A stretch of 64,000 nt of DNA. It comes from Sphingopyxis sp. DBS4 (GTDB lineage: Bacteria > Pseudomonadota > Alphaproteobacteria > Sphingomonadales > Sphingomonadaceae). The notes under the pieces are model-generated. The model had not been told where the DNA came from. It saw nothing but the letters and a program-made list of their open reading frames with translations, and searched no databases. Below are positions 3,969 to 34,519 of the stretch, one piece after another (the stretch's first letter is position 1; each line of letters opens with the position of its first letter). A program made the position numbers and the translations under genes. Location: the NCBI RefSeq assembly GCF_024628865.1, contig NZ_CP102384.1, positions 3,173,001 to 3,237,000 on the forward strand. The letters are read 5' to 3'.

Positions 3969-3995
3969 CTCTTTATCCCTTTCCGGTTGATCGCC

Positions 3996-4805
3996 TCAGC
4001 TTGCAAACGCCGCTTTGACGGTCCCGACTCCATTGATTCTGGCCTCGACGACGTCGCCGGCCGCGACGGTTGCCATGGGTCCGAGAGCGCCCGACAGAAG
4101 AACATCTCCGGCAAGAAGCGGACGGCCTTCGCGTGCCATGACGCGCGCCAGCCACAAGGAGGCACTGATCGGGCTGCCAAGACAGGCGACGCCCGCGCCG
4201 ACAGAAACAGGCTCGCCGCGGCATTCCATCACCATCCCGCACGCGCGTAGGTCGAGCCCGTCGAGCTTGCGCGGAACGGCGCCAAGCACGAACAGACCGC
4301 TCGAAGCATTATCGGCGATGGTGTCCAAGATCCGGATGTCCCAATTGGCGATGCGGCTGTCCACGACCTCGATCGCGGGCACGACATATTCGACCGCCCG
4401 GATCAGTTCGGCGATCGTAAGGTCGGGCTGAAGGAGGTCGCGCCCGACCACGATCGCGATTTCCGCTTCGACCTTTGGCTGGATGACCCGCCCGAGCCCG
4501 ATCGGCTCGCCCTCGGGCACATCCATATCAGCGAAGAGCATGCCATAGTCGGGCTGGTCCACGCCGAGCTGCTTCTGGACCGCCCGCGAGGTAAGCCCGA
4601 TCTTGCGTCCGACGAGACGGCGCCCCGAGGAGAGTGCGTGGCGGGTGTTCAATTCCTGCACCGCATAGGCCGCCGCGACGCCACCGCCGCTGAGGCTTTC
4701 GCGAAGCGGGGGGATCGGCGAGCGCTTTTCGGCCGCCGTTCGCAGGGCGATCGCTGCTTCTTCAATGATGTCAGGGTCAAGTGTATTTTGTTCGGACATG
4801 ATCAT
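3996..4805 (-). CDS. xylJ: 2-oxopent-4-enoate (2-hydroxypenta-2,4-dienoate) hydratase
   Basis: Paralogue of the decarboxylase at 1226-1996, adding water to 2-hydroxypentadienoate to give 4-hydroxy-2-oxovalerate. The hydratase subtype is shown by GRKIGLTSRAVQKQLGV, VVDSRIANWDIRI, DNASSGLFVLG and LGSPISASLWLA, which match XylJ/DmpE rather than XylI. ATG 4805 overlaps the 2-hydroxymuconic semialdehyde dehydrogenase stop (ATGA); a second ATG at 4799 (MSEQNTLD) is an alternative start giving a protein two residues shorter. The open frame further upstream is the ALDH gene out of frame and is excluded. Confidence 0.9.
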   Translation of the reverse strand: MIMSEQNTLDPDIIEEAAIALRTAAEKRSPIPPLRESLSGGGVAAAYAVQELNTRHALSSGRRLVGRKIGLTSRAVQKQLGVDQPDYGMLFADMDVPEGEPIGLGRVIQPKVEAEIAIVVGRDLLQPDLTIAELIRAVEYVVPAIEVVDSRIANWDIRILDTIADNASSGLFVLGAVPRKLDGLDLRACGMVMECRGEPVSVGAGVACLGSPISASLWLARVMAREGRPLLAGDVLLSGALGPMATVAAGDVVEARINGVGTVKAAFAS

Positions 4806-6313
4806 ATCTTCACGCAGATGTTTTCGAGCTCGGTGTAGAATTCGAGGCTGTGCGCTCCGCCCTCGCGGCCTATTCCCGATTGCCCCGAACCGCCGAATGC
4901 CGTGCGCAGGTCGCGCAGGAACCAGCAGTTCACCCAGCACACGCCGACGGACATTGCCGCCGCGACGCGATGAGCTCGAGAGAGATTTTCTGTCCAGACG
5001 GTAGCGCACAGGCCATAATCCGTGTCGTTCGCCCAACTTATCGCGTCGTCTTCGGTGTCGAAGGGAATGATCCCGCAGCAAGGACCGAAAATCTCCTCCC
5101 GCATGACGGTCGAATCATGAGCGAGGCCGGTCCAGATTGTGGGTTCGACCCAGAACCCGCCCGCCGCCGCGGCATCGACGTTGGGTACCCCGCCGCCCGT
5201 AACGGCGATTGCCCCTTCGGCGATCGCCCGCTCATAATATCCGAGCACTTTCTGCCGATGTTCTTCGCTGATCATCGGCCCGAGGTAATGCGGATCACCC
5301 TTGTTCCCGGGTTTCAGTGCGCGAGCGGCAGCGGCAAGCTTGGCTACGAAAGGTTCGAAGACGGATTGCTCGACATAGACACGCTCGGTCCCCAGGCACA
5401 CTTGCCCGCTATTCAGAAAGGCGGCGCGCGAAATGCCTTCGGCTGCTTTCTCAAGATCGGCATCGGCGAAGACGATCGCTGGATTTTTGCCGCCGAGTTC
5501 GAAGCTGATGTCGCGAACGCCGACGGCAGCCTGCTTCATTATGGCCTGCCCGGTGCCGGTTTCGCCTGTGAAGGTGATGGCATCGACGTCCGGATGGGCG
5601 GTGAGGAACTCGCCTGCTGCGCCGGGGCCGAAGCCGTGGACGACGTTGTAGACCCCCGTGGGCATTCCGACCGCGTCCATCACTTCGCCGAGAAGGGCTG
5701 CCGTCCGCGGCGTCTCTTCGGACGGCTTGACGATCACGGTGTTCCCGCAGGCCAGCGCCGGGCCGACTTTCCAGGTCATCAGCAAGAGCGGGAAATTCCA
5801 CGGGCAGACGACCGCGATGACACCCTTCGGTTTACGCACAGCGTAATTGATCGCACCGCTCCCGTCAGGCGTCGGGGTACCGAACGATTCTGTCGGGAGG
5901 GTCGTGACGATGTCGGCGAACATCCGGAAGTTCGACGCGCCGCGCGGAACATCGATGTGCGCCGCGACCGCTCTCGGCTTGCCCGTATCGGCCACTTCTG
6001 CATCGAGAAAGTCTTCCGAGCGCCGTTCGATCTCATCCGCAACAGCAGCGATGAGCCGAATGCGCTCGGCTGTTGTCATTTTGCCCCAAGGTCCTGTGAG
6101 CGCACGCTTGGCCGCCGCTACAGCGCGATCCACATCCTCACGGGTCGCCTCATGAACGCGCCCCGTCTCCCGACCGGTGGCGGGGTCGATGTTGGGGAAC
6201 GTCGCCCCCGAGCCGCCCTTTACGAACCGTCCGTCGATAAAGTTCAAGATATCCGCAGCGACAGGTCGGTTTCTCTCTTCCGGTTCGACCGCAAGCTGTT
6301 GAACCTGTACCAT
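4802..6313 (-). CDS. xylG: 2-hydroxymuconic semialdehyde dehydrogenase
   Basis: A 503-residue ALDH with catalytic C306 in NSGQVCLGTERV, general-base E272 in FELGGKNP and the Asn motif PWNFPLLLMTWK. The sequence between these and the C-terminal FGGSGQSGIGREGG is typical of XylG/DmpC. It oxidises the yellow ring-fission product 2-hydroxymuconic semialdehyde to 2-hydroxymuconate, opening the oxidative branch (tautomerase, decarboxylase). ATG 6313 follows the stop of the HbpS-like gene directly. It carries an N-terminal extension of about 20 residues relative to typical members. Confidence 0.92.
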   Translation of the reverse strand: MVQVQQLAVEPEERNRPVAADILNFIDGRFVKGGSGATFPNIDPATGRETGRVHEATREDVDRAVAAAKRALTGPWGKMTTAERIRLIAAVADEIERRSEDFLDAEVADTGKPRAVAAHIDVPRGASNFRMFADIVTTLPTESFGTPTPDGSGAINYAVRKPKGVIAVVCPWNFPLLLMTWKVGPALACGNTVIVKPSEETPRTAALLGEVMDAVGMPTGVYNVVHGFGPGAAGEFLTAHPDVDAITFTGETGTGQAIMKQAAVGVRDISFELGGKNPAIVFADADLEKAAEGISRAAFLNSGQVCLGTERVYVEQSVFEPFVAKLAAAARALKPGNKGDPHYLGPMISEEHRQKVLGYYERAIAEGAIAVTGGGVPNVDAAAAGGFWVEPTIWTGLAHDSTVMREEIFGPCCGIIPFDTEDDAISWANDTDYGLCATVWTENLSRAHRVAAAMSVGVCWVNCWFLRDLRTAFGGSGQSGIGREGGAHSLEFYTELENICVKI

Positions 6314-6739
6314 TCAGAACTCCTTCGCACCAATCGAGGCGGCGGCTGCCCGGGCGCAGGCGATGTCGAACTCCTCGGAGCCGCCCGAGACTCCAATTCC
6401 CCCGATGCAATTCCCATCGACTATGATCGGGACACCGCCGCCGAACATCACGACCCGCGGCTGATGCGCGATGCCGTTGCATAAGGCTTCGGAGCCCGAG
6501 ACCAGTTCGTAGACCGCTGCCGTCGGCACTTTGAAACTTGCGGCCGTGAAGGCTTTGTCCTGAGCGATCTTTTCGGAGTGAAAGGGAGCCGCGCCGCCTT
6601 TCAGGAACGCGACCAGTTCCCCCGACGCGCCCACGACCGCAGCGACCACGGGCGTTCCGCCGGCGGTGCCATGCCCTACGGCAGCGGCGACCGCCTCCAA
6701 GGCGGACCCGTGTGCAATCGTGTGGTAGTTTTCGACCAT
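6314..6739 (-). CDS. HbpS/GlcG (DUF336) family protein
   Basis: A 141-residue protein with the family pattern: N-terminal helix, VVAAVVGASGELVAFLK, the helix containing KAFTAASFKVPTAAV, and the C-terminal VMFGGGVPIIVDG...GGIGVSGG. HbpS-type members bind haem; GlcG-type members occur in many metabolic operons with unknown roles. There is no signal peptide, so it is probably cytoplasmic. It sits between catechol 2,3-dioxygenase and semialdehyde dehydrogenase, a position known from other meta-cleavage operons. A role in protecting or re-activating the dioxygenase is only a guess. Confidence 0.82.
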   Translation of the reverse strand: MVENYHTIAHGSALEAVAAAVGHGTAGGTPVVAAVVGASGELVAFLKGGAAPFHSEKIAQDKAFTAASFKVPTAAVYELVSGSEALCNGIAHQPRVVMFGGGVPIIVDGNCIGGIGVSGGSEEFDIACARAAAASIGAKEF

Positions 6740-6748
6740 CGCAGGAAG

Positions 6749-7672
6749 TCAGGTATTGACGGTCATGAAGCGGTCGTTGAGCGCCTTTTCATAATAGAAA
6801 ATCGCCTTGCCCGCCTGTTCGACGCCCCACGACCGGCGAGGATTATCGGGGTAATAATCATAACCGCCGGCAAAGGTCTCGTTCCGATTTCCCGAAGGGT
6901 CGAAGAAATATATGGTCTGACCACGCGTGATACCGTGGCGCGTCGGGCCGATATCGAGTGAGATATCATAGCGACTGATGATATCGGCAGCATTTCCGAC
7001 GTCGTTCCAGGATTCCAGGCGGAACGATGTATGGTGGATTTTCGCATCCTCGGGGCCTGCAAGGAACGCGATATCGTGAGCCTTATTGCTACAGCTCAGG
7101 AAGATGCCGAGCCGAGTGCCGCTCGCTTCGTCGACGAGTTCCTCGGTAACGGAAAAATCGAGCGCTTCGACGAAGATTCGCGCCGATCCCGCGACATCGA
7201 TGCCGTTGAGCGCCGAGTGATCATATCGCATAGCGCGCATGCCGCGCGGCTCACTGTGCCAGACGTCCGGGTTCTTTGTGGGAGGACCGTCTGCCGATAA
7301 TTCCATGTCGGCGTAAAGGTCGAAGATATGCCCGGTAGGAACCGCGAAGCGCAGCTTGCGTCCGACGCCCTCTTCCTCGCCCGCGGTGATCCATTCGACG
7401 TCGACGCCGGTGGCTTGCAAACGGTCTGCGAATATTTCGAGGTCGCTGTCGCGGCAAACCTTGAAGCCGATCCGATCAAGACCGGGCATATCCGCCTCGC
7501 GCAGGATGACGCTGTGTCGATCGAATTCGTCGAACCCGCGGAAAAATGCCCGGTCACCCGAACGACCGACGAGTTCCAGCCCGATCCGGTCGCGATAATG
7601 GGGGATGGCCTCCTCGAGATCGAGGACGCGCATCTGGACAAAGCCTGGTCGCATCACGCCTGTAATTGCCAT
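6749..7672 (-). CDS. xylE: catechol 2,3-dioxygenase (XylE type)
   Basis: Type I extradiol dioxygenase of 307 residues, colinear with XylE of the TOL plasmid. Iron ligands are H152 (YDHSAL), H214 (IHHTSF) and E265 (NRNETF), and the signature IGPTRHGITRGQTIYFFDPSGN is intact apart from conservative changes. It cleaves catechol between C2 and C3 to 2-hydroxymuconic semialdehyde. The chosen ATG 7672 lies 7 bases after a GGAG site; a GTG precedes it directly. All downstream enzymes of the meta pathway are in the same operon. Confidence 0.95.
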   Translation of the reverse strand: MAITGVMRPGFVQMRVLDLEEAIPHYRDRIGLELVGRSGDRAFFRGFDEFDRHSVILREADMPGLDRIGFKVCRDSDLEIFADRLQATGVDVEWITAGEEEGVGRKLRFAVPTGHIFDLYADMELSADGPPTKNPDVWHSEPRGMRAMRYDHSALNGIDVAGSARIFVEALDFSVTEELVDEASGTRLGIFLSCSNKAHDIAFLAGPEDAKIHHTSFRLESWNDVGNAADIISRYDISLDIGPTRHGITRGQTIYFFDPSGNRNETFAGGYDYYPDNPRRSWGVEQAGKAIFYYEKALNDRFMTVNT

Positions 7673-7691
7673 CACCGCTCTCCCGGGAAAT

Positions 7692-8540
7692 TTAAAATTT
7701 TAGGCCGTGACTGAAAAATTCGATCACGGCGCGATTGAAACTGGCCATCCGCTCGATCTGTACCCAATGGCCACACTCTCCAAAGAAGCGGACGTCTGAG
7801 TGTGTGATCAGGTTTCCGAGGCGCAGCGACACCTCTTGCGGAATGACTTGGTCGGCCTTGCCGTGCAGGACGAGCACTTCATGGGGAAGCGCGGCGATAT
7901 CTTCCTCGCGGCTCGACAGCATAGCAATATTGGCCTGCCGGTCGGAACCGCCGAACGTCGCATGATAGGGCTCATGCGCTCCTGGGCGGATGCTCGCGTG
8001 ATAACGGGAGTCGATCAGATCGTCGGTCAGCCGGCTCTGGTCCCATGCGAGCATCTTCAGCGACTCATGCATCATTTCGCGGGATGGCTCATAACCCCAG
8101 ACGAAATCGAGCGCCGGCGTGAGCGGGAATTCAAGTCCAGCCGCTCCCATCAAAACGGCACGATCGACCCTGTCGGGATGGGCGATCATGAAGGCGAGCG
8201 TCACGCCGCCGCCGAAGGAATTTCCGACCATCGAGACCTGGTCGATTTCCAGGTCGTCGAGAAGACGGACCAGTTGATTGGTCCAGATGGCCTTGTCGGT
8301 GATCCGACCCACCGAGTCGCTGTAGCCGAAGCCAATCATGTCGGGAGCAATGACCCGGAATTCCTTAGCAATCTCGGGCATATTAAGCCGCCAGTTCGCC
8401 CATGCCGTGACCCCGGGGCCCGAACCGTGGACGAGGAGGACCGGCCTGCCCTCGCCGGTGTCATGATAGTTGGTTTTGATCCCGTCAGCGACGAATGTCT
8501 TGCCGATTTCGGGCCGGACCATGTCGGGCGCCGAACTCAT
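7692..8540 (-). CDS. xylF: 2-hydroxymuconic semialdehyde hydrolase (alpha/beta hydrolase, XylF-like)
   Basis: A 282-residue meta-cleavage product hydrolase. The triad is S108 in GNSFGGG, D230 in HGKADQVIP and H258 in GECGHWVQ; the oxyanion region HGSGPGVTAW is typical of XylF/DmpD/BphD. It hydrolyses ring-fission ketones or the semialdehyde to 2-hydroxypentadienoate and an acid, the hydrolytic branch of the pathway. It is the first gene of the catechol part of the operon. A possible operator lies about 100 bases upstream at 8640-8663, so this gene may have its own promoter. ATG 8522 is an alternative start. Confidence 0.9.
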   Translation of the reverse strand: MSSAPDMVRPEIGKTFVADGIKTNYHDTGEGRPVLLVHGSGPGVTAWANWRLNMPEIAKEFRVIAPDMIGFGYSDSVGRITDKAIWTNQLVRLLDDLEIDQVSMVGNSFGGGVTLAFMIAHPDRVDRAVLMGAAGLEFPLTPALDFVWGYEPSREMMHESLKMLAWDQSRLTDDLIDSRYHASIRPGAHEPYHATFGGSDRQANIAMLSSREEDIAALPHEVLVLHGKADQVIPQEVSLRLGNLITHSDVRFFGECGHWVQIERMASFNRAVIEFFSHGLKF

Positions 8541-8639
8541 TGGCCAGCAACCATGTAATCATCATGTCGGGCGACCTGCCCCCAAACGGCTTCAAGCATC
8601 ACTCAATCTCCGTTCCACGGGCCATCATGTCGCAGCCCT

Positions 8640-8663
8640 CTTGGGACAATGTTTTGCACCATG
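8640..8663. promoter_or_regulatory. candidate operator, CAA-N4-TTGCAC type
   Basis: Degenerate inverted repeat: left arm CTTGGGACAA, spacer TGTT, right arm TTGCACCATG. The right arm matches the perfect palindrome at 12415-12438 at nine of ten positions, with the same 4-base spacer. It lies in the 170-base gap before the hydrolase gene. Binding is inferred, not shown. Confidence 0.45.
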
Positions 8664-8710
8664 GGAAACGCGTTTGCAACCGGTAAATGAAACCGGCGCC
8701 TCTGATCCGG

Positions 8711-9316
8711 TCACTTCAGGCTCTCGGCTCGCACGGCTTCGAGGACACCGGGCTCCTCTTCCATCCGGGCGCGGTAGCGCGTCAAAGCGGGGAAGCCCGC
8801 GAGACCGATCTCCACTCGAGAGGGCCACCCGAGGATGCAATAGAGATAGGCGTCGGCCACGGTGAAGGCGTCCCCGAAGCAATAATTCTTGTCGGTCAAT
8901 TCCAGGTCGAGCGCTTGGAGATGGTGCATGACGTCCCGCTTTGCCTCAGCGCGGATCTCCGGCCCCGCGGTTTTGGAGAAGAGCGGCACGAAGCTCTTGT
9001 GCAGCTCGGAGGCGATGAAGCTCAGGCTGTCCGTCAGCGTGTAGCGAGCGATTGTTCCGGCCGGCGGGGCGAGCCCCGCGCGCGGTGCCAGGTCGGCAAC
9101 ATAGAGAAGGATCGCTATCGTCTCTGTGAGAAGCTCGCCCGAATCCAGAAGGAGAGCAGGGATTTTTCCCGAAGGCTTTATCGACCGGAAGTCGGCGCCA
9201 TGCTCGGTTCTGCGCGTGGGCATGTCGACTTTTTCAATATCGAACTCTGCCCCTATCCGGCGCAGCGCGATGTGCGGTGCCAGCGAGCAAAGGCCAGGCG
9301 CATAGTAAAGGAGCAT
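8711..9316 (-). CDS. beta-class glutathione S-transferase
   Basis: A 201-residue GST. C10 in MLLYYAPGLCSLAPH is at the position of the mixed-disulfide Cys of bacterial beta-class GSTs, and the cis-Pro/glutathione-binding segment GKIPALLLDSGELLTETIAI is intact. GSTs of this class (for example BphK) are frequent in biphenyl and PAH operons; the exact substrate is usually unknown. A glutathione-dependent partner, the 2-hydroxychromene-2-carboxylate isomerase, is encoded at 15590. An AGGA site lies 6 bases before ATG 9316. It is downstream of the PdxA-like gene in the same direction. Confidence 0.9.
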   Translation of the reverse strand: MLLYYAPGLCSLAPHIALRRIGAEFDIEKVDMPTRRTEHGADFRSIKPSGKIPALLLDSGELLTETIAILLYVADLAPRAGLAPPAGTIARYTLTDSLSFIASELHKSFVPLFSKTAGPEIRAEAKRDVMHHLQALDLELTDKNYCFGDAFTVADAYLYCILGWPSRVEIGLAGFPALTRYRARMEEEPGVLEAVRAESLK

Positions 9317-9388
9317 CTCATATCCTTGTGGACGACTTGAGCACAGCGCGCGAATGGCCGTGCTTCACGCCGGAGTTGGGCCGGCGCG

Positions 9389-10411
9389 TCAGCGATCCAC
9401 CTCGGAAAAGCCCTTTCCGGCGGTCAGCACCCCACAAGTCCGCATGGCACTCAGCATCATCGATGGATCGGCTTTGCCCGTTCCCACAATGTCATATGCC
9501 GTGCCGTGTGCGACCGACATATGGAGATAGGGTGGCCCCATCATGATCACGCAGTTTCCCGAGAATCCCCATGTCTTGACGGCTATGTGGCCTTGGTCGT
9601 GAAACATCGCTAGCACGAGATCGTATCGGCCTTCGATACATTGGCGAAAGACGGTATCGGGCGCGGATGGTCCATCGACATTGATGCCGCGCGCGCGCGC
9701 GCGCGCGACTCCAGGACCGATGGCACGATCTTCCTCATCGCCGATGGCATGAGGATTGAGACCCGCGACCACGATCCTGGGGTTGGCGACGCCCCAGCTT
9801 CGAAGCGCCGCGTCGATTTGCTGTAGGGCGGTATCGATCAACTCGGGCGTGATGAGGTCGCAGACCGCCCGAATCGACATATGATCGGTGAGGTGGGCGA
9901 CACGGAGCGGTCCGGTGAGGAGGAGCAGATAACTCTCGCCCGGCGTCGGGCTGATCACCATATCCAGCTTTCCCGCCAGTTTAAGCGATCCGGTGCTGAT
10001 CGGACCCATCACTGTGCCGGCGAAGACCCCGTCGCGCGCGAGCGCATCGAGTTCGGCTAGCCACTTGGCGGTCGCAATGCCCGATTCGAGCGTATCTTTC
10101 GCGAAGGGGAGCGCGCGGTCGTCCAGCGCACCTGTATCCAGGATATCGATGACTGCCGGGTCGTCGCTGAGCGGCTCGAGCGAACGCATGACACGCAGGC
10201 GGGCCGACACTTTAGTCAGGTCAAGCGCTCGTTCGACCGAGGCCGCCGACCCCACTAATAGGGGAACCGACACCTCATGCACGCGGCCTGACGCCCAGGC
10301 GCGAACGGTAACCTCGGGTCCGATGCCTGCCGGCTCGCCGACCATGGTACCGATGCAGGGCCGGAATCCGGCCTGCTGCGACGCTACGCCGACCTCAAAT
10401 GCTGTAGACAT
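9389..10411 (-). CDS. PdxA-family dehydrogenase, probable decarboxylating cis-dihydrodiol dehydrogenase
   Basis: A 340-residue PdxA-superfamily protein. The family's metal ligands are present as H177 (LTDHMS), H221 (NPHAIG) and H271 (MFHDQG); the N-terminal VGEPAGIGPEV and VAHGTAYDIVGTG are typical. True PdxA serves vitamin B6 synthesis, but homologues such as TphB oxidise and decarboxylate carboxylated cis-dihydrodiols in phthalate-isomer degradation. The start codon lies 17 bases inside the beta-subunit gene of a Rieske oxygenase. I therefore infer that it acts on that oxygenase's product rather than in B6 synthesis. A second, similarly placed homologue is at 22602-23612. Confidence 0.8.
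   Translation of the reverse strand: MSTAFEVGVASQQAGFRPCIGTMVGEPAGIGPEVTVRAWASGRVHEVSVPLLVGSAASVERALDLTKVSARLRVMRSLEPLSDDPAVIDILDTGALDDRALPFAKDTLESGIATAKWLAELDALARDGVFAGTVMGPISTGSLKLAGKLDMVISPTPGESYLLLLTGPLRVAHLTDHMSIRAVCDLITPELIDTALQQIDAALRSWGVANPRIVVAGLNPHAIGDEEDRAIGPGVARARARGINVDGPSAPDTVFRQCIEGRYDLVLAMFHDQGHIAVKTWGFSGNCVIMMGPPYLHMSVAHGTAYDIVGTGKADPSMMLSAMRTCGVLTAGKGFSEVDR
9688..9707. repeat. (CG)10 dinucleotide tract inside the PdxA-like gene
   Basis: Twenty bases of uninterrupted CG repeat within the coding sequence, read as alternating Ala-Arg near residues 237-241. Gain or loss of one unit would shift the reading frame. Confidence 0.9.
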
Positions 10412-10889
10412 CGAGCATCGTCTGCGCGAGGTCGTTGATGACGACGGTATATTTGCGTTTTATCACAAAGGCGTCGCCCATCGGTTCGAGATCGTAAATG
10501 GCCGACCCACTGTAGACCGTCGGCCGATCCTCCAAGACCGAGGTCACCGACCAATTCGTCCGCGCCCGAATGACGTCGTCCTCATGGTCGACCGCGAGCA
10601 GGCAAAAGATATGGGAAGTGCGCGGGGCCGGCGAACTGGCCGACGACCGGCCCGTCCGAATGCGATAGACGCGGTCCTCGAGCCCTGCCCGGGTCGGATA
10701 ATAGATCAGCGAAATCTCGCGCCTTGGGTCCTCGGTCAATCGGCCGCTGTCATCCCACGCGGGGACCCAATATTCGGCATCGGGATGATATAGATCGATC
10801 CAGCTATCCCAATCCTTGGCATCGAGAGCGGCCGCTTCGCGCCCGAGAAATCGCTGGATCGCGGTCCATTGCGCAACTTCGCTGCTCAT
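10395..10889 (-). CDS. aromatic-ring-hydroxylating dioxygenase, beta subunit
   Basis: A 164-residue NTF2/SnoaL-fold small subunit. The segment W-x-x-x-x-DLYHPDAEYWVPAW and the Arg-rich strand around EDRVYRIRTGR are typical of BenB/XylY-type subunits. ATG 10889 overlaps the alpha-subunit stop (ATGA). Longer upstream extensions of the frame run into the alpha gene and are excluded. It gives structural support to the alpha subunit in an alpha3beta3 hexamer. The PdxA-like gene starts within its last 17 bases. Confidence 0.9.
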   Translation of the reverse strand: MSSEVAQWTAIQRFLGREAAALDAKDWDSWIDLYHPDAEYWVPAWDDSGRLTEDPRREISLIYYPTRAGLEDRVYRIRTGRSSASSPAPRTSHIFCLLAVDHEDDVIRARTNWSVTSVLEDRPTVYSGSAIYDLEPMGDAFVIKRKYTVVINDLAQTMLDVYSI

Positions 10890-12298
10890 TTCGCCATCTC
10901 CGGCTTCGGGGGTAACGCGCGCTCGGCCTCTTCGCTCGCAATGGCTCCGCGCATGCGCAATATCCATTCGTCGTGGATCGCGACGTAAAGCCCCTCGTCG
11001 GCCACCGCCGTGCCGCTAAGGATGGCGTCGACGCCCAGGGCTTCGCCGTGGCTGCTGACGCCTTGCACCCACCGTGTCGATCCCCGCGACATGTCGTTCA
11101 TCCGGCCAGCCCCGCCACCGAAACCGACCTGGCAATTGTTGAACTCGGTCAGGTCGTCCGGCGTAGCCATGCCGCTTGCATTGAAGAAATCTTCATACTG
11201 GCGGATGCGCAAGGCGCGGGCGTCGTCACTCTCACCCACCGGAGCTATGCAGTAGGTTGTCACCTCGGTCTCATCCACCGAGATGGGCCGGATGATACGG
11301 ATCTGGGTGCTCGTCTGGTCCATGAGGAAGACGTTAGGGAACAGCTCCAGATTGCGTATCCGGCCGTTCATCCAGGTAGCGCGCTCTTCGCCGCGCTCGC
11401 GCTTCAACCAGTCCAGGATTTCGTAATTCGGCCGGTCCTGATAGTTTGCATAGTCATTCCAGAGCACGCAATGGCCGTTGTCGAAGGAGAAAGAGCCGCC
11501 CTCGAGCTGAGCCCAGCGACCGAAATCGAACGCCCTGGTATCGTTCTTCGATGTCCCGTCGACCCGGCGTGCGACCGTCATGAAGTAATTCGCGTGCACC
11601 GTGCCGATATGATAGCCGTCGAGGCCATTTTCGACCTGCAGCTTCCAGTTCCCTCGATAGCGGTAGCGCGTAGCGCCTGGAAGAACTTCGAGCTTCTCTT
11701 CGACCGACTGATCAACCATGAGATCGATGAATGTCTTCGCGCCCGCGAGATAGTCCTCAAGAGGAACGACCTCGGGGTTGAGACTGGCGAAAATGAAGCC
11801 CCGGTAAATCTCGATGCGCGCAACATGTTCTAGACCATAGTCTTCCCGCTTGAAGCCCGGCGCGTAGCCACCCCCAGCCTCATCTGTCACGTCGAGGAGT
11901 TGGCCCGCGGGATTATAGGTCCAACCGTGGAAGGGGCAGGTGAAGTTGCGGCGGTTTCCGCTCTTCTCGCGGCAAACGCGCGCGCCGCGGTGCGCGCAGG
12001 CATTGATCAGACAATGCAATTCCCCGGCCCGGTCGCGGGTCAGGATGACGGGCTGGCGGCCGATAAAAGTCGTGAGAAAGTCGTTCGGCTTTGCGACCTG
12101 GCTCTCGTGCGCAATGAAGACCCAGTTGCGCTCGAAGATATATTTCAGCTCGAGAGCGAACACGTCCGCGTCGGTAAAGGCCTCCCGGTCGATCTGAAAG
12201 CGGCCGCTTCCCTCGTCTTTTACGAGCCATGCATCGATACGCGAACGCAGTGATTCAAGCTCTGCCACGGCTGCGCCGTTTCCGTCAGGTTGCAACAT
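10886..12298 (-). CDS. Rieske non-haem iron oxygenase alpha subunit (BenA/AntA-like)
   Basis: A 470-residue catalytic subunit. The Rieske [2Fe-2S] ligands are C101/H103 (CAHRGARV) and C121/H124 (CPFHGW). The mononuclear iron site is H230 and H235 with bridging D227 in ENGLDGYHIGTVH, closely resembling benzoate and anthranilate 1,2-dioxygenases. ATG 12298 is preferred because GGAGG lies 5 bases before it; upstream candidates lack a site. Its neighbours are the beta subunit and a TphB-like dehydrogenase instead of the SDR-type BenD. The likely substrate is an aromatic carboxylate dihydroxylated at the carboxylated carbon; bicyclic substrates are my inference from the cluster. Confidence 0.9.
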   Translation of the reverse strand: MLQPDGNGAAVAELESLRSRIDAWLVKDEGSGRFQIDREAFTDADVFALELKYIFERNWVFIAHESQVAKPNDFLTTFIGRQPVILTRDRAGELHCLINACAHRGARVCREKSGNRRNFTCPFHGWTYNPAGQLLDVTDEAGGGYAPGFKREDYGLEHVARIEIYRGFIFASLNPEVVPLEDYLAGAKTFIDLMVDQSVEEKLEVLPGATRYRYRGNWKLQVENGLDGYHIGTVHANYFMTVARRVDGTSKNDTRAFDFGRWAQLEGGSFSFDNGHCVLWNDYANYQDRPNYEILDWLKRERGEERATWMNGRIRNLELFPNVFLMDQTSTQIRIIRPISVDETEVTTYCIAPVGESDDARALRIRQYEDFFNASGMATPDDLTEFNNCQVGFGGGAGRMNDMSRGSTRWVQGVSSHGEALGVDAILSGTAVADEGLYVAIHDEWILRMRGAIASEEAERALPPKPEMAK

Positions 12299-12414
12299 CC
12301 TCTCCTCCATTTCCGGCCACCGAGATTCGTAGGTCAACTATTTGGATCAACGATTCTCGGCTCAACTCTTTGGACTCTTCCGATCCCGAATGACCCAACA
12401 TAGCATGCGTGGCT

Positions 12415-12438
12415 CATTGTGCAATGGGTTGCACAATG
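12415..12438. promoter_or_regulatory. perfect palindromic operator candidate in divergent control region
   Basis: Arms CATTGTGCAA and TTGCACAATG are exact reverse complements separated by TGGG. It lies in the 247-base divergent gap between the Rieske alpha gene (minus) and the extradiol dioxygenase gene (plus), where it could control both operons. Related copies are at 8640-8663 and 34770-34793. Confidence 0.7.
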
Positions 12439-12485
12439 ATCTAAATTGCCCTATTCGAATCGCGTTGCATCATGTGCGACACGTC

Positions 12486-12510
12486 AACCAGGCTGGTTCA
12501 GGCGTATAAA
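12486..12510 (+). promoter_or_regulatory. second inverted repeat followed by a -10-like TATAAA
   Basis: AACCAG-G-CTGGTT is a perfect inverted repeat at 12486-12498, followed after six bases by TATAAA (12505-12510), 35 bases before the extradiol dioxygenase ATG. No good -35 box is seen at the normal distance, which fits an activator-dependent promoter. The repeat's sequence is unrelated to the palindrome at 12415. Confidence 0.4.
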
Positions 12511-12545
12511 AGCCAAAAATGGCTTGAGATTTGGGAGTGCGAAAT

Positions 12546-13445
12546 ATGGTGGGCGTGACCGAGCTGGGTTATCTAGGCTTGTCGGTATCTGATCTGGATG
12601 CATGGAAGAGCTTCGCGTGCGGCGTCGGCGGCATGGAATATGTCGATGAAGGCGAAGGCGACCGCGCGTATCTGCGAATGGACAAATGGCATCACCGCAT
12701 CACGCTGCATGCTGATGGCGGTGACGATCTTGCCTATCTTGGCTGGCGCGTTGCGGGTCCGGTAGAGTTCGACGAAATTGTCGAGAAGCTGACAGTCCAG
12801 AATATCGAAGTCGAAATAGCGAGCGACGAAGCGGCGCGCGAGCGCCGGGTCCTCGGCTTGGCCAAGCTCAAGGATCCGGGCGGTAATCCCACCGAAATCT
12901 TCTTCGGCCCCCAGGTCGACAATTACCGCCCTTTTCATCCCGGCCGCCCGATGTTCGGTCGTTTTGTTACCGGCGCCGAAGGGATCGGCCATTGCATCCT
13001 GCGTCAAGATGATGTGGCCGCAGCGGTTCGCTTTTATCAGCTGCTCGGGCTGCGGGGCTCGGTCGAGTACCACCTCGCTTTGCCGAACGGTGATGTCGCT
13101 GCCCCCTATTTCATGCATTGCAACGACCGGCAACATTCCGTGGCTTTCGGCCTCGGTCCGATGGACAAGCGGATCAACCATTTGATGCTCGAGTACAGCG
13201 AGCTCGACGATCTTGGCCTTGCCCACGACTCGGTGCGCGAACGAAAGATCGATGTCGCACTCCAGCTCGGAAAGCACGCGAACGACGAAGCGCTGACATT
13301 CTACTGCGCAAATCCGTCAGGGTGGCTGTGGGAATTTGGCTGGGGAGCGAAAAAGGCGGGCCCGCAGCAGGAACATTATCTGCGCGACCTCTTCGGCCAT
13401 GGAAATGAAGCCGAGGGCTACGGAATGGACATCCCCCTCGGCTGA
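12546..13445 (+). CDS. BphC/NahC-like extradiol dioxygenase (two-domain vicinal oxygen chelate)
   Basis: A 299-residue type I extradiol dioxygenase for bicyclic catechols. Iron ligands are H149 (GIGHCILR), H212 (RINHLMLEY) and E263 (WLWEFGWG); the second-sphere His of BphC is present at H197 (DRQHSVAFG). ATG 12546 is chosen because GGGAG ends about 8 bases before it. The first gene of a plus-strand operon that also encodes 2-hydroxychromene-2-carboxylate isomerase, it probably cleaves 1,2-dihydroxynaphthalene or a related diol. The assignment to NahC-like rather than BphC-like substrate preference is by context only. Confidence 0.9.
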   Translation: MVGVTELGYLGLSVSDLDAWKSFACGVGGMEYVDEGEGDRAYLRMDKWHHRITLHADGGDDLAYLGWRVAGPVEFDEIVEKLTVQNIEVEIASDEAARERRVLGLAKLKDPGGNPTEIFFGPQVDNYRPFHPGRPMFGRFVTGAEGIGHCILRQDDVAAAVRFYQLLGLRGSVEYHLALPNGDVAAPYFMHCNDRQHSVAFGLGPMDKRINHLMLEYSELDDLGLAHDSVRERKIDVALQLGKHANDEALTFYCANPSGWLWEFGWGAKKAGPQQEHYLRDLFGHGNEAEGYGMDIPLG

Positions 13446-13467
13446 CCACCTTAGGATATTTCAAGAG

Positions 13468-13809
13468 ATGGATGTGATTGAAATGGAGAGACTTCGCCTG
13501 TGCCCAATTGACGCCCCCCAGGACGGCGAGCCGGTTGCGATACCGGCAGGCGCCTTCCCGGCGCTCGCGGTCTATAACGTCGATGGCCAGATTTATGTCA
13601 CGGCCAACACATGTACGCACGGCAACGCGCAGCTTACCGATGGCTATCAGGACGGTGCGACGATCGAATGCCCCTATCATGGCGGCGCCTTCGACATTCC
13701 GAGCGGAGCCGCGACAACTTATCCCTGCCAGATCCCGCTTAAGACCTATGAAGTGACGATCGAGGACGGCTGGGTGACGATCGACGCTCCCGGTGCGCCG
13801 GAGAGCTGA
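13468..13809 (+). CDS. Rieske-type [2Fe-2S] ferredoxin of a ring-hydroxylating oxygenase
   Basis: A 113-residue Rieske ferredoxin with ligands C49/H51 (CTHGNAQL) and C68/H71 (CPYHGG). It would carry electrons from a reductase to oxygenase components. It is the only Rieske ferredoxin seen in the window, while four oxygenase alpha subunits are present, so it may serve several of them, as in other sphingomonads. ATG 13468 has a weak upstream AGGA; ATG 13483 is possible. It sits between the extradiol dioxygenase and beta-subunit genes. Confidence 0.9.
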   Translation: MDVIEMERLRLCPIDAPQDGEPVAIPAGAFPALAVYNVDGQIYVTANTCTHGNAQLTDGYQDGATIECPYHGGAFDIPSGAATTYPCQIPLKTYEVTIEDGWVTIDAPGAPES

Positions 13810-13813
13810 GGCT

Positions 13814-14302
13814 ATGGACCTTTCCACTCTGCCTCGCACCGAGCTCCTCCGGGAAGTGACGGACCTTATTGCCCTGCACGCCGAGCTGATTGACGACGAT
13901 CAGCTCGAAGCGTGGCCCGATCTGTTCGTCGAGGACTGCCACTATTCCGTATTGCCGCGAGAGAATGCCGACCGCGGATTGCCGGTTGCGACGATCTTCT
14001 GTGACAGCAGGGGCATGCTTGTAGACCGCATCGTCTCGCTCCGGCGCGCCAACATTTTTCCGGTCCATCACTATCGACACATCATCAGCACCAGCCGCAT
14101 TCACGAGGTTCGTTCAGATGCGGTTGTGGCACATACAAACTATCTAGTGCTCCAGACAAGAAACACCGGCCGATCATTTGTGTATAATGCTGGTAAATAT
14201 GTCGATGAAATAGTGTTTTCGTCCGGGAAATTTCTTTTTCGGTCAAAGAAGGCGATTTTCGACACGGACCTGATCGACACTTTGATGGTCCGCCCCATTT
14301 AG
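13814..14302 (+). CDS. ring-hydroxylating oxygenase beta subunit (salicylate/anthranilate type)
   Basis: A 162-residue NTF2-fold small subunit; LIDDDQLEAWPDLFVEDCHYSVLPREN and RRANIFPVHHYRHIISTSRI are the family-typical parts. ATG 13814 is preceded by TGAGG and lies four bases after the ferredoxin stop. It pairs with the alpha subunit 19 bases downstream. Base composition falls towards AT near its 3' end (about 14150-14260), unlike its neighbours. Confidence 0.88.
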   Translation: MDLSTLPRTELLREVTDLIALHAELIDDDQLEAWPDLFVEDCHYSVLPRENADRGLPVATIFCDSRGMLVDRIVSLRRANIFPVHHYRHIISTSRIHEVRSDAVVAHTNYLVLQTRNTGRSFVYNAGKYVDEIVFSSGKFLFRSKKAIFDTDLIDTLMVRPI

Positions 14303-14321
14303 CCCATTTCGAGGTTGCGAT

Positions 14322-15593
14322 ATGCTCAATGTTCAAGATACGGCCGTAGGTAAAGTGTCGACCGACACCGAGGAGCCCATTGGCTGCCGGATACCATATT
14401 CCGTGTTCACGGATGATGCCTTTTACAAGGCCGAACAGGAGCATCTCTTCCGCGGCCCCACCTGGAACTTCGTTGCGCTCGAGGCCGAAGTCCCGAACCC
14501 CGGTGATTTCAAATCGACCTTCATCGGCGACACGCCGGTCGTTGTGACGCGGGACAAGGACCAGAGCCTCCATGTCGTTGTGAACCGCTGCGCGCATCGC
14601 GGCGCGACGGTATGCCGCGCACGCCAAGGCAATGTGCCGCATCTCGAATGCGTTTATCATCAATGGGCTTATGAATTGAACGGAGACCTCATGGGCGTCC
14701 CGTTCCGCCGCGGGATCAAGGGCAAGGGGGGGATGCCGGCGGATTTCGATCTCAAGCAACATGGCTTGGTCAAGCTGCGCGTCGAAGCGTTGAATGGGCT
14801 GGTTTTCGCGACATTCTCGCAAGAAGTGGAGCCGCTGACGGACTATCTCGGTCCGCTCATCACCAAGCATGTCGAGCGGATCATGTGCCGCCCGATCAAG
14901 ATATTGGGCAATCAACGCCAGTTCATCCACGGCAACTGGAAGCTATACGCCGAAAATACGCGCGACCCCTATCACGCAAGCCTCCTCCATCTGTTTCACA
15001 ATACTTTCGGCCTCTATCGTTCGACGCAAACCGGCGAATGCCTGATGGACGAGAGCAAGCGGCATTCGTTCCTTTATTCGAAGGCGGGCAGCAACGACGC
15101 GGCGCGCGACAGCGAAGTCTATCAGGACTCGCGCAGCTTCGACACGAGCTTCTCGCTCCAGGATCCGTCGCTGCTCGCGGGCCGGAGCGAGTTTCCGGAC
15201 GGCATCACCCTCGTCATCCTGGCCCTTTATCCCAACCTGATTTTGCAGCAGATCTCGAACACGCTCGCGGTTCGCCAGATCGTCACCCACGGACCGGATT
15301 CGTTCGAGCTCGTGTGGACCCAATTTGGCTATGCGGACGATGATGCGGAGATGGACGCGATCCGCCTCAAGCAATCGAACCTCATCGGACCGGCGGGCAT
15401 GATCTCGATGGAGGATGGCGAGGCGGTCGAGATCGTGCAGCAGGCGGTCAGCTCGGACAGAAAGGCAAGATCCTATATCGCGATGGGCGGCGGCGGCGCC
15501 GATGATGCGGATCATCTTGTCACGGAAGGGGCCATCATCGGCTTCTGGCAAAATTACCGCGAGATGGTGGGAATCGAAGAGAGGGTCTCATGA
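14322..15593 (+). CDS. Rieske oxygenase alpha subunit, salicylate hydroxylase/anthranilate dioxygenase-like
   Basis: A 423-residue catalytic subunit. Rieske ligands are C90/H92 (CAHRGATV) and C110/H113 in the unusual CVYHQWAY, a form I associate with NagG, AndAc and sphingomonad AhdA1c-type enzymes, as is the downstream VPFRRG...KGGMP segment. The iron site is D215, H218 and H223. By family and context it probably converts salicylate to catechol, feeding the XylE operon; anthranilate is an alternative. Its stop overlaps the isomerase start (ATGA). Confidence 0.88.
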   Translation: MLNVQDTAVGKVSTDTEEPIGCRIPYSVFTDDAFYKAEQEHLFRGPTWNFVALEAEVPNPGDFKSTFIGDTPVVVTRDKDQSLHVVVNRCAHRGATVCRARQGNVPHLECVYHQWAYELNGDLMGVPFRRGIKGKGGMPADFDLKQHGLVKLRVEALNGLVFATFSQEVEPLTDYLGPLITKHVERIMCRPIKILGNQRQFIHGNWKLYAENTRDPYHASLLHLFHNTFGLYRSTQTGECLMDESKRHSFLYSKAGSNDAARDSEVYQDSRSFDTSFSLQDPSLLAGRSEFPDGITLVILALYPNLILQQISNTLAVRQIVTHGPDSFELVWTQFGYADDDAEMDAIRLKQSNLIGPAGMISMEDGEAVEIVQQAVSSDRKARSYIAMGGGGADDADHLVTEGAIIGFWQNYREMVGIEERVS

Positions 15594-16180
15594 CCGCCAC
15601 CATTGATTTCTACTTCGATTTCATCAGCCCGTTCAGCTATCTCGCACAGTTGCGTCTGCCGGAGATTGCGCGTCGGCACGGCCGGGCGCTCGCCTATCAT
15701 CCCATCGACATCCCCGAAGCAAAGATTGCGGCGGGCAATTACGGCCCGTCCAACCGCGAGGTGCCGGCGAAGATAAAGGTTCTGACCGCGGATCTGCAGC
15801 GTTGGGCTCGGCGGTACGACGTGCCGCTTACCTTTCCATCGAGCTTCGAGTGCGGAGGCTGGAACACAGCCGCAATCTTCGCGGCCCGTCACGGTGCCGC
15901 CGAAGGCTTCGTGCGGGATGCCTATCGGCGCATCTGGGGCCTCGGAATCGATCCGCGAGACCGGGACGAATTGCGCGCCTCGGCGGCAACGGCGGGTCTC
16001 GAAGCCGATGCCGTCATGGCCTTCGTGGATTCGAAAGAGGGCAAGCGCGCCTATCGCGAAGCGCGGTCGAAAGCTTACGCCCGCGGCGTATTCGGCGCGC
16101 CGCTTATGTTTGTCGACGACCAGATATTCTGGGGAAACGACCGGCTGGATTTTCTTGAAGAGCATGTGCGGACGAATTGA
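15590..16180 (+). CDS. nahD: 2-hydroxychromene-2-carboxylate isomerase (NahD-like)
   Basis: A 196-residue DsbA/kappa-GST-fold protein: FYFDFISPFSYLA at the N-terminus with the catalytic Ser at residue 13, KIKVLTADLQRWARRYDVPLTFP, and the C-terminal GVFGAPLMFVDDQIFWGNDRLDFLEE. The family uses glutathione to isomerise 2-hydroxychromene-2-carboxylate to trans-o-hydroxybenzylidenepyruvate in naphthalene-type degradation. This is the clearest sign that a bicyclic aromatic is processed here. The next enzyme of that route (NahE hydratase-aldolase) was not found in the window. Confidence 0.92.
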   Translation: MTATIDFYFDFISPFSYLAQLRLPEIARRHGRALAYHPIDIPEAKIAAGNYGPSNREVPAKIKVLTADLQRWARRYDVPLTFPSSFECGGWNTAAIFAARHGAAEGFVRDAYRRIWGLGIDPRDRDELRASAATAGLEADAVMAFVDSKEGKRAYREARSKAYARGVFGAPLMFVDDQIFWGNDRLDFLEEHVRTN

Positions 16181-16204
16181 AAAAAAGAATCAGGGAGAGG
16201 GAGA

Positions 16205-18394
16205 ATGGACATGAGGACCAACAGTTATAATAGCGGGCGCGCCCTCGCGAGCGGCATCGCACTTTTCGCACTGGCCTGGAGCGCGGCCGGCCAAGCCCAG
16301 GATACGGCCCCGGCTGCCGAACCCGAGCCCGAGGCGCAGTCGAGTTCGGGTATCTCCGACATCATCGTGACGGCCACGCGCCGCGAGGAGCGTCTGCAGG
16401 ACGTTGCTGTCGCCGTGACCGCGATCACCGGCGATTCGCTCTCGGCGGCAGATGTTTCGACGGTGCGCTCGTTGACCCAGGTGGTTCCCGGATTCATCGG
16501 GAGCCGCAACATGGGTGTCTTCCAGCCCGTCATTCGCGGCGTCGGGTCGACCGGCATCTCGATCGGCGACGAGCCAAACATCGCCACCTATGTCGATGGT
16601 GTCTACCAGCCAGAGTCGGCCGCCAACTGGATCGATCTCGTCGAAGTCGAGCGCGTGGAAGTGCTGCGCGGACCGCAAGGCACGACATTTGGCCGCAACG
16701 CCACCGGCGGCCTGATCAACGTGATTACCCCCGACCCCAGTTTTGACCTGCGCGGCAAGGCGTCGCTGCGTTACGGCCGCATGCGGAGGGACGCGGGCGA
16801 TTATGATGCCCGCTTCTATATCACCGGCGGCCTTAGCGATAAATTGGCTGCCGATTTTGCCGCCCTCTATCGCAAGAACGACGGCTATATCGACGATCTG
16901 GTGCGCGGCGGCACGCTCGGCGACCAGCAAGTGATCAACTTTCGCAGCAAGCTGCTGTGGCAGCCTTCCGACAATGCCAAGGTCATCCTGACCGGCGAAT
17001 TCTTCGACCAGAACAGCACGACCAATTCGCCCCAGCCGGTCAATGGGAATACGGCCGGCCGTCGCTTCCCGGGCGTTATACTTCCGACCGACGCTTGGCA
17101 GGCGTCACTGACCAGCATTCCTACGCTGGACTTACGGCGCTGGAGTGCGGCGCTGCATGTAAAACTCGAGTTCGACGGCTTCAACCTCGAGGCGACGAGC
17201 GGCTTCATGAATCTGCGCTGGTACCAGGAAACCGATTCGGACGCCTCGAACATCTTCCTCGGTAATTTCCCTGCAACATTTGCGACGGAATCGGGGAGCC
17301 AGGAAATCAAGTTCACGTCTGCCGACCCCGGCCGATTCCAGTGGCTCCTGGGCGGCTATTTCTACCAGTTCGGCGGTCATACTGAGTTGGATCTCGTCAC
17401 GTCGCCGGGGCCTGGAATCCCTCCGACCACCCTCAACCTTGATCCCGCACTATCGGGTCGCTCGTTCGCGGGCTTTGCCGAAGGAACCTACGAGATCGTC
17501 GACGACCTGTTCATCACTGTCGGCGCGCGGTACACCACCGAGCGGCGGACCTTCGAACAGGTCGTTAATGGAAATCTGGTCGTTCCGAAGACCGCCAAGT
17601 CGTTCAACAAGTTCAACTATCGCGGCGCAGTCCGGTACCAGTTCGCACCCGACGGAAGCATTTATGCAAGCTATGGCACCGCATTCAAAAGCGGCGTCTA
17701 CAATATGGCGGGCACATCGCCGAATCCGGTCAATCCCGAGAACATCAAGGCATGGGAGGCCGGCATCAAGGTCGACCCCTTCAATTGGCTCCGCACGAAC
17801 CTCGCCGTTTATCACTATACGTACGACGATCTGCAAGTTCAGGCCAAAGACGCGTCGGGTCCGAGCTACGTCCTGCAGAACGCAGCGAGCGCCAAAATCT
17901 ATGGCGGCGAGTTCGAGGCGATTATCCAACCGATTGACGATCTCAACATCCGCGGCTCGGCGGCCTACAGCCACGCGCGCTATCGTGATTTTCCGCTCGC
18001 GCAGAGCTTTTTCCCGCGCCCCGACGGAGGCAACACTGTTGCCCCGGCGGACGCGTCGGGTAACGTGATGACCCGCGCCCCGAAGTGGACGTTCAACCTG
18101 GGGGTCGATTGGGGCCATGAGTTCGATGCAGGGCGCCTTGGGGTCTCGGTCAACACCTTCTACTCGACCCGGCTCTATTATGACTTCCAGAATATTTTCT
18201 CCCAGCCGAGCTATACCCTTACCAATGCGTCGATATCCTTTGCCCCAACCGGTGATCGCTGGAAATTCAGCCTCTGGGCGACCAACCTCACCAACGAAAA
18301 GGTCTTCCAGACCATTCGTGTCGGGGCGCAGGCAACTGACGGCTTTTACGAACAGCCAAGAAAAGTGGGCGTCAGCGCCGAACTCCGGTTCTGA
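16205..18394 (+). CDS. TonB-dependent outer-membrane receptor
   Basis: A 729-residue receptor with signal peptide (cleavage probably after GQAQ), TonB box-like DIIVTATRRE, a plug domain containing EVLRGPQGTTFGRNATGG, and a beta-barrel ending in ELRF (terminal Phe). GGGAG precedes ATG 16205. It closely resembles the receptor at 28519-30723 throughout, so they are paralogues. Its place directly after the isomerase gene suggests it imports the aromatic substrate of this operon across the outer membrane; sphingomonad TonB receptors for lignin aromatics are precedents. Confidence 0.93.
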   Translation: MDMRTNSYNSGRALASGIALFALAWSAAGQAQDTAPAAEPEPEAQSSSGISDIIVTATRREERLQDVAVAVTAITGDSLSAADVSTVRSLTQVVPGFIGSRNMGVFQPVIRGVGSTGISIGDEPNIATYVDGVYQPESAANWIDLVEVERVEVLRGPQGTTFGRNATGGLINVITPDPSFDLRGKASLRYGRMRRDAGDYDARFYITGGLSDKLAADFAALYRKNDGYIDDLVRGGTLGDQQVINFRSKLLWQPSDNAKVILTGEFFDQNSTTNSPQPVNGNTAGRRFPGVILPTDAWQASLTSIPTLDLRRWSAALHVKLEFDGFNLEATSGFMNLRWYQETDSDASNIFLGNFPATFATESGSQEIKFTSADPGRFQWLLGGYFYQFGGHTELDLVTSPGPGIPPTTLNLDPALSGRSFAGFAEGTYEIVDDLFITVGARYTTERRTFEQVVNGNLVVPKTAKSFNKFNYRGAVRYQFAPDGSIYASYGTAFKSGVYNMAGTSPNPVNPENIKAWEAGIKVDPFNWLRTNLAVYHYTYDDLQVQAKDASGPSYVLQNAASAKIYGGEFEAIIQPIDDLNIRGSAAYSHARYRDFPLAQSFFPRPDGGNTVAPADASGNVMTRAPKWTFNLGVDWGHEFDAGRLGVSVNTFYSTRLYYDFQNIFSQPSYTLTNASISFAPTGDRWKFSLWATNLTNEKVFQTIRVGAQATDGFYEQPRKVGVSAELRF

Positions 18395-18456
18395 CGCGCC
18401 CAAACGCGGTCCAAGGGCTTGATCCCGCGGATCGCGTGCGGCCGGGCTGCCGCCGT

Positions 18457-24157: not shown

Positions 24158-24158
24158 C

Positions 24159-25583: not shown

Positions 25584-25613
25584 TCTCCAGACAATGATGA
25601 TGAACAATTTGTG

Positions 25614-32462: not shown

Positions 32463-32554
32463 CTCCCATCCTTTCTCTTTGCTATTTCGCCGCCCGCGTC
32501 ACCTCGCGATGCGGTCACATTCATCCCATGCCCGCTGCCCACCGGGGCCCAAGT

Positions 32555-34269: not shown

Positions 34270-34519
34270 TTGCCACCTCAAATCCAATGATCAGTCAGTC
34301 TGTACTGTTTGTTTTGATTCGGGGCAAGCCTTATCGCGAGTCCCGAGAGGGGTGTCGTCATGACCGGGGCGATGTGCTGAGCGGCACCTGGCAGCATAGG
34401 GTTGTTATCGCCCGCTCGTCGCGAACGTTCGATCCTTCAACGCGCAGGGCCCGAGGCAAAGAGCGGCCGGCTTCGGCGAGCCCGTCGAGAGCGATCTGGT
34501 AGTCCCCGCTGCCCCGATA

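Follow-up and report, generated by a model that had tools for sequence, protein, structure and literature searches.

Introduction

The closest described systems include the xylX-xylY-pdxA stretch of Sphingobium PNB (PMC4048848). The XylXY oxygenase of this strain, together with AhdA3/A4, converts benzoate to catechol and p-toluate to 4-methylcatechol; the accessible parts of the 2014 paper also record an overlap xylX-xylY-orf183_9 and place a 4-hydroxythreonine-4-phosphate dehydrogenase among the genes of undeterminable role (PMC4048848). Judged by synteny, orf183_9 is probably the pdxA gene. Here we analysed a stretch of 64,000 nucleotides from Sphingopyxis sp. DBS4 (NZ_CP102384.1, positions 3,173,001 to 3,237,000), called the window below, with a focus on its gene for a PdxA-family protein at 9389-10411, which follows xylX and xylY. 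A homologue in Cycloclasticus pugetii (CYCPU_RS0111480) shows very high expression and is labelled as the second step of naphthalene degradation in the parts of the source available (PMC11099662), a dihydrodiol dehydrogenase label that looks doubtful because the naphthalene diol has no carboxyl group. On a consortium scaffold, as far as the accessible text goes, the gene adjoins genes for the beta and alpha subunits of benzoate 1,2-dioxygenase (PMC5591006). We found no experiment assigning a function to this PdxA in the open-access literature, part of which was accessible as excerpts, with subscription papers mostly outside coverage. A precedent is TphB, which PDB titles describe as a PdxA-fold decarboxylating diol dehydrogenase.

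The xylX-xylY-pdxA trio

The three genes are open reading frames (ORFs) on the minus strand. The first (10886-12298; longest ORF start 12337) encodes the alpha subunit of an XylX/BenA-like class B Rieske oxygenase (PF00355, PF00848) and carries the Rieske CxHx17CxxH and NxxDxxHx4H motifs. The second (10395-10889) encodes an XylY/BenB-like beta subunit (PF00866), and the third encodes the PdxA-family dehydrogenase (PF04166, 227 bits), for which we propose a decarboxylating role on a carboxylated cis-dihydrodiol. BenA and BenB were the best NCBIfam matches of alpha and beta, with scores below the equivalog cut-offs (TIGR03229, 589 bits against 781; TIGR03232, 165 bits against 226). The window XylX is 66-72% identical to XylX of pNL1, pLA1 and KK22. 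A first-pass annotation of the locus had named these families and three metal histidines in the PdxA protein, and both held: Pfam and NCBIfam concur, and H177, H221 and H271 are all present.

The overlaps that it described were also found. The alpha stop codon TGA and the beta ATG share 4 bases (ATGA), and the beta stop and the PdxA ATG share 17. The latter figure hinges on the choice of PdxA start: the annotation of S. fuliginis KK22 gives the same 17 bases, whereas pNL1 and pLA1 use later starts without overlap. Residues 1-13 of the structure model have a predicted local distance difference test (pLDDT) score below 50. The three genes may be translationally coupled; they overlap only, and the term "translationally fused" used earlier does not apply.

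A Rieske-linked PdxA clade with two deletions

The PdxA-family protein is distinct from the housekeeping enzyme. It scored 207 bits against TIGR00557, below the cut-off of 290, and a separate pdxA gene lies elsewhere in the genome (C12:140387), with a PF04166 score of 312 bits compared with 227 and 220 for the two copies in the window. Given this extra pdxA and the placement of the window protein in a Rieske-associated clade that does not include the C12 copy, the protein is neither the sole PdxA of the genome nor grouped with the housekeeping form. The trees were built without near-copies of at least 86% identity, which reduced 81 distinct sequences to 43; for the final tree, six more Chloroflexota rows were dropped and eight sugar-acid-type rows were added. 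The results showed a Rieske-linked clade of 25 rows with support of 100/100, in which the metal site is kept and the phosphate loop is shortened. Counted on the alignment rows of the tree set, two 5-residue deletions occur in 25/25 clade rows and in none of the remaining 20, of which three are TphB-type.

We then compared the phosphate site with that of E. coli PdxA, whose residues we take to be H136, T137, N283 and R292. The window protein has I, S, V and H in these columns, the first two being uncertain through the deletion. R292 is retained in two of the 25 clade rows (L086 and L093), and N283 is also absent from several rows outside the clade. Loss of N283 and R292 with an intact H/H/H metal triad occurs both in the window protein (V and H) and in the TphB-type rows (A, and L or F). 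The structure model (pLDDT 88) has the PdxA/TphB fold.

A phylogeny against TphB and genuine PdxA had been suggested as a check, and its outcome was mixed. The clade stands apart from the housekeeping enzymes, and the best tree places it outside the TphB branch, yet a topology that unites it with TphB in one clade was not rejected (approximately unbiased test, p = 0.272), and long branches were flagged. The TphB labels themselves come from one row (L095) with scores of 404 and 276 bits against TphB structures and from two rows (L091 and L092) that branch with it. As a separate candidate, we considered that the window protein is a TphB orthologue and set this aside: neither the tree nor the loops gave support, although a single clade was not rejected.

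Distribution and synteny

Among 227 relatives, the best 80 were kept, and 61 of these (L004-L064) are loci of the clade. Both XylX and XylY precede PdxA in 45/61 loci, and a contig end falls inside the trio in one more (L028). In 7/61 loci (Cycloclasticus and similar), PdxA is followed by an A1d-type alpha subunit, and 8/61 have other neighbours. A Rieske alpha motif was found within 6 kb in 56/61 clade loci, in 0/19 Chloroflexota loci and in 0/8 sugar-acid-type loci, with flanks of about 3 kb and several contigs ending early; the figure of 56 is a lower count because the regular expression misses A1d-type alpha subunits and the XylX frame of L008. The linkage of the trio exceeds chance.

The named relatives belong to Sphingopyxis, Sphingobium, Novosphingobium and others, with Cycloclasticus more distant, and include the plasmids pNL1, pLA1 and KK22 p1. 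The cluster comprises, on one side, divergent bphC, ferredoxin, A2c, A1c, nahD and a TonB receptor and, on the other, xylX, xylY, pdxA, a glutathione S-transferase gene, xylF, xylE, xylG and the lower meta pathway. The genes, their order and their neighbours are the same on pNL1 (N. aromaticivorans), pLA1 (N. pentaromativorans US6-1), KK22 p1 and SJTF8 pF2. The arrangement is thus the already known xylX-xylY-pdxA of the sphingomonad polycyclic aromatic hydrocarbon (PAH)/xylene cluster. It had been put forward as a new type of aromatic acid dihydroxylation module, a claim that the same gene order on pNL1 and pLA1 and the published assays of a homologous XylXY on benzoate and p-toluate do not support.

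Within the genus of the window, this PdxA was found in 13/79 genomes (E<=1e-90): eight at 100% identity, the window's own included, three at 85% and two at 73%. The region 1991-18400 (about 16 kb) is 99.99% identical in DNA to three species-level genomes and 99.0-99.9% identical to two more (L004-L008). This near-identity across species, together with the identical PdxA in eight genomes, suggests from DNA comparison that the whole cluster was recently transferred. Ten cluster genes gave dN/dS (nonsynonymous to synonymous substitution rate) values of 0.05-0.19, indicating purifying selection, with dS of 0.8-2.2 and with some values (NahD, HOA) inflated by the use of stop-to-stop frames.

Short clusters and class A dioxygenases

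In contrast to the pNL1/pLA1/KK22/SJTF8-type clusters, the window has no A1d-A2d after PdxA, and we refer to this form as the short cluster. We searched for a class A PAH dioxygenase with the KK22 alpha subunit as the single query, a search that other PAH dioxygenase types could escape. The best match in the window's own genome was 31% identical and none exceeded 38%, and 0/8 other short-cluster genomes (L004-L010 and L043; seven Sphingopyxis and one Sphingomonadales metagenome-assembled genome, MAG) had a match at E<=1e-70. All 29 of the other genomes tested had one, 22 at >=89% identity and the rest at 42-76%; four of these 29 positives rest on matches of 42-54%. The eight short-cluster genomes represent two cluster lineages: along some 16 kb, the DNA of five loci is 99.0-99.99% identical to that of the window, and that of three is 77% identical. 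S. bauzanensis (L023) and a second genome of the same genus (L012) have the longer cluster, in which a PdxA 73-74% identical is followed by A1d, and both have the class A enzyme. Absence of the class A enzyme tracks cluster type, not genus.

The short-cluster genomes keep genes of the 1,2-dihydroxynaphthalene dioxygenase, 2-hydroxychromene-2-carboxylate (HCCA) isomerase and hydratase-aldolase types. A search for an XylM-type monooxygenase in the window's own genome, made without a positive control, gave no match. Retention of naphthalene-type mid-pathway genes with no close class A match suggests that the short cluster is an acid-fed version of the pathway, with naphthoate, hydroxynaphthoate via the A1c enzyme, or other Rieske modules as possible entries. 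The idea of a bicyclic carboxylated substrate, raised in the first-pass annotation, gains some indirect support from the same observation. Together with the two-deletion signature and the coexisting short-chain dehydrogenase/reductase (SDR) considered next, the missing close class A dioxygenases of the short-cluster genomes are the strongest new facts.

An XylL-type SDR beside the trio

About 2 kb past window position 1, the contig encodes an SDR of the BenD/XylL type. It scored 339 bits against NF009463, above the cut-off of 322, and 302 bits against the BenD model NF040811, below its cut-off of 380. Also encoded just past window position 1 are an A4-type reductase and a hydratase-aldolase of the NahE type, which scored 435 bits against 9frt. 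Given this SDR, the view that PdxA stands in for BenD does not hold in its simple form, and we dropped a plain BenD replacement as a candidate. When 15 chosen genomes were scanned with the family model, 11 gave a match at E<=1e-50 and six exceeded the cut-off.

Two further observations concern the DNA beyond the window (L101). An additional AndAc-like alpha gene lies beside NahE at 4013-5188, and UbiX-like, UbiD-like and two flavin adenine dinucleotide (FAD) oxidoreductase-like genes, identified from translations read by eye only, lie at 8408-15918.

Proposed role of the PdxA-family protein

With a probability of roughly 0.6, we propose that the PdxA-family protein dehydrogenates and decarboxylates the carboxylated diol that XylXY produces. 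XylXY, fed by the cluster Rieske ferredoxin and a reductase, would use O2 to dihydroxylate the ring at the carbon that bears the carboxyl group and at the one next to it. The resulting cis-1,2-diol-1-carboxylate would be bound by the PdxA-type protein at its three-histidine metal site and its secondary alcohol oxidised with nicotinamide adenine dinucleotide (NAD), upon which CO2 would leave to give a catechol-type product. The XylE extradiol dioxygenase of the operon would take over this product, or the divergent BphC-type enzyme would do so if the product is bicyclic. The observed facts behind the proposal are the gene order and its conservation, the family, the metal site, the shortened phosphate loop, the distinct clade and the coexisting SDR; what PdxA catalyses, the use of NAD, the substrate, the electron donors and how the work is shared with the XylL-type SDR are presumed from them. 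The earlier suggestion that the protein, like TphB, decarboxylates a diol of an aromatic carboxylate remains the best reading, while membership of the TphB branch is not supported by the best tree.

Several observations weigh against this proposal. An SDR match (E<=1e-50) was present in 45/48 PdxA-bearing genomes, 41 at >=57% identity and four at 42-50%, and a rival candidate for the diol step is therefore nearly always at hand. In the Cycloclasticus-type loci (7/61), PdxA lies next to the A1d-type alpha and not next to XylX. Structures of PdxA and of D-threonate-phosphate dehydrogenase outrank TphB in both sequence and fold. E. coli carrying XylXY, ferredoxin and reductase of PNB yields catechol with no dehydrogenase among the constructs listed in the accessible parts of the paper (PMC4048848), and the need for PdxA is therefore unproven. 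In the same parts, most genes were not overexpressed in PNB cells on salicylate or benzoate/p-toluate (PMC4048848), which makes benzoate a less likely natural inducer. A separate point on the PNB constructs is that the diol made by XylXY did not accumulate in E. coli (PMC4048848).

Alternatively, XylXY could have its true partner for benzoate and toluate in the XylL-type SDR, and PdxA would act on another carboxylated diol, such as one that an A1d/A1c-type oxygenase forms from a PAH-derived acid. We regard this as possible though unlikely. The near-constant SDR, the A1d neighbour in place of XylX in seven loci and the lack of induction of most PNB cluster genes by benzoate all favour it. The available expression data of US6-1, relative to marine broth, point both ways: log2 changes of PdxA were small (-0.27 on benzo(a)pyrene, 0.72 on phenanthrene and 0.25 on pyrene), and XylL was detected in marine broth only, which fits a separate role for PdxA, but XylX also rose slightly on phenanthrene (log2 0.49), alongside PdxA (PMC3946609). 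The XylX-XylY-PdxA unit argues for partnership within the trio, since it recurs in 45/61 loci, and in the short clusters of Sphingopyxis and Rugosibacter-type contigs it occurs with no A1d. In addition, three of the 48 PdxA-bearing genomes, all MAGs or uncultured assemblies, gave no match to the XylL-type SDR and do have the trio.

For the short-cluster Sphingopyxis, a more specific route would have XylXY and PdxA convert naphthoate to 1,2-dihydroxynaphthalene, with salicylaldehyde formed by BphC, NahD and NahE and the last steps carried out by the A1c enzyme and XylE. The retained mid-pathway genes, their purifying selection, the class A pattern (0/8 short-cluster against 29/29 other genomes) and the XylM search are consistent with this route. 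We nevertheless consider it quite improbable, for no naphthoate assay of XylXY was found in the literature examined, the eight genomes amount to two cluster lineages only, L012 and L023 of the same genus do have the class A enzyme with their longer cluster, and dihydroxynaphthalene could instead come from hydroxynaphthoates via the A1c enzyme, from module 2 or module 3 described below, or from the alpha subunit at C67:104468. The explanation that the gene encodes an enzyme of vitamin B6 or sugar-acid-phosphate metabolism that has strayed into the cluster and has no aromatic role draws on the fold and family and on the top solved structures, PdxA and D-threonate 4-phosphate dehydrogenase. It is highly unlikely in view of the separate housekeeping pdxA, the Rieske linkage, the shortened phosphate loop and the finding that no sugar-acid kinase is among the annotated neighbours of L084, L085 and L096.

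Returning to the decarboxylating dehydrogenase, a broader and doubtful extension is that the two-deletion subfamily was recruited independently as TphB-unlike decarboxylating aromatic diol dehydrogenases, which in short-cluster Sphingopyxis would feed naphthoate-type acids into the naphthalene mid-pathway without a naphthalene-type dioxygenase. The gene carries a vitamin B6 label on well-known sphingomonad PAH plasmids, and annotators can tell it from both PdxA and TphB by the two-deletion signature, which also opens the way to a direct test of the enzyme. If the proposal is true, PAH degraders would have two unrelated dehydrogenases for carboxylated diols, and models of how PAH-derived acids are handled would change.

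Other genes of the window

Downstream of the trio on the minus strand lie genes for a BphK-like glutathione S-transferase (8711-9316; NF007831, 203 bits, cut-off 198; syntenic with pNL1), an XylF-like meta-cleavage product hydrolase (7692-8540; HsaD/BphD-type matches below cut-off; syntenic and 73% identical to pNL1), an XylE-type catechol 2,3-dioxygenase (6749-7675; TIGR03211, 403 bits, cut-off 320) and a heme-binding-protein-like product of the meta operon (6314-6739; syntenic with pNL1 and pLA1, 55-56% identity). They are followed by syntenic genes for 2-hydroxymuconic semialdehyde dehydrogenase (XylG; 4802-6313; 75-77% to pNL1 and pLA1), acetaldehyde dehydrogenase (3033-3968) and 4-hydroxy-2-oxovalerate aldolase (1993-3036), the last two being 79-90% identical to pNL1.

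On the plus strand, an extradiol dioxygenase of the BphC/1,2-dihydroxynaphthalene dioxygenase type (12531-13445; TIGR03213, 371 bits, cut-off 366) is nearest 2wl3 (523 bits), with the 1,2-dihydroxynaphthalene dioxygenase 2ehz at 403 bits. It is followed by a Rieske ferredoxin, the likely electron donor (13483-13809; PF00355; synteny), and by salicylate-hydroxylase-type beta (A2c, 13793-14302; NF041685, 180 bits, below cut-off; 59% to pNL1/pLA1) and alpha subunits (A1c, 14322-15593; NF041684, 530 bits, below cut-off; 70-73% to pNL1/pLA1). The gene at 15590-16180 (PF01323; 2imd, 154 bits) comes next, and the NahD-like isomerase of the cluster matches HCCA isomerase. Two TonB-dependent receptors (16205-18394 and 28519-30723) are about 52% identical and lie near different Rieske modules. 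Rfam gave no match at gathering scores.

A second module on the minus strand (module 2) comprises an alpha subunit distantly related to BenA (24159-25607; family scan), a beta subunit distantly related to BenA (23609-24172; family scan) and a second PdxA of the same subfamily (22602-23612; PF04166, 220 bits; same clade and deletions), followed by a class II aldolase-like protein (21917-22618) with a weak match to a PhtC-type decarboxylase (NF053537, 41.7 bits, far below the cut-off of 200). The module 2 PdxA was found in 8/8 other short-cluster genomes at 73-100% identity; in L012, L019, L020, L029 and L054, the best match was only 38-43%. Related sets occur on Caballeronia zhejiangensis p3 and Sphingobium AntQ-1 pANTQ-1. 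A Pfam-based list of alpha subunits in the window's own genome misses the module 2 alpha and is thus not a census. A third Rieske alpha-beta pair (30781-34287) is AndAc/AndAd-like with low scores, and two extradiol-dioxygenase-like proteins, one weak-scoring, lie upstream of it.

Comparison with known systems

The benzoate/toluate systems BenABCD and TOL XylXYZL have a class B dioxygenase like that of the window (alpha 49.5% identical to TOL XylX, beta 44%), and both they and the window have the meta pathway downstream. The TOL operon has a reductase and a BenD-type SDR, with no PdxA in the stretch inspected, whereas the window trio has PdxA. The terephthalate operon TphA2A3-TphB shares the alpha-beta-PdxA order, with 4-base overlaps in two Rhodococcus loci. 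TphB, however, is about 27-33% identical to the window PdxA and lies on a separate branch, the TphB-type rows have neither deletion where the window clade has both, and the alpha subunit beside TphB-type genes is nearest A1c (45-47%) among the references used, not XylX. The Cycloclasticus PAH cluster (CYCPU_RS0111480) has a PdxA that belongs to the clade of the window protein, accompanied by BphC-, ferredoxin- and NahD-like genes; its PdxA adjoins an A1d-type alpha with no XylX adjacent, whereas that of the window adjoins XylX-XylY. Compared with the pNL1/pLA1/KK22/SJTF8-type clusters, which match the trio and its neighbours, the window further differs in having the second PdxA module about 12 kb away.

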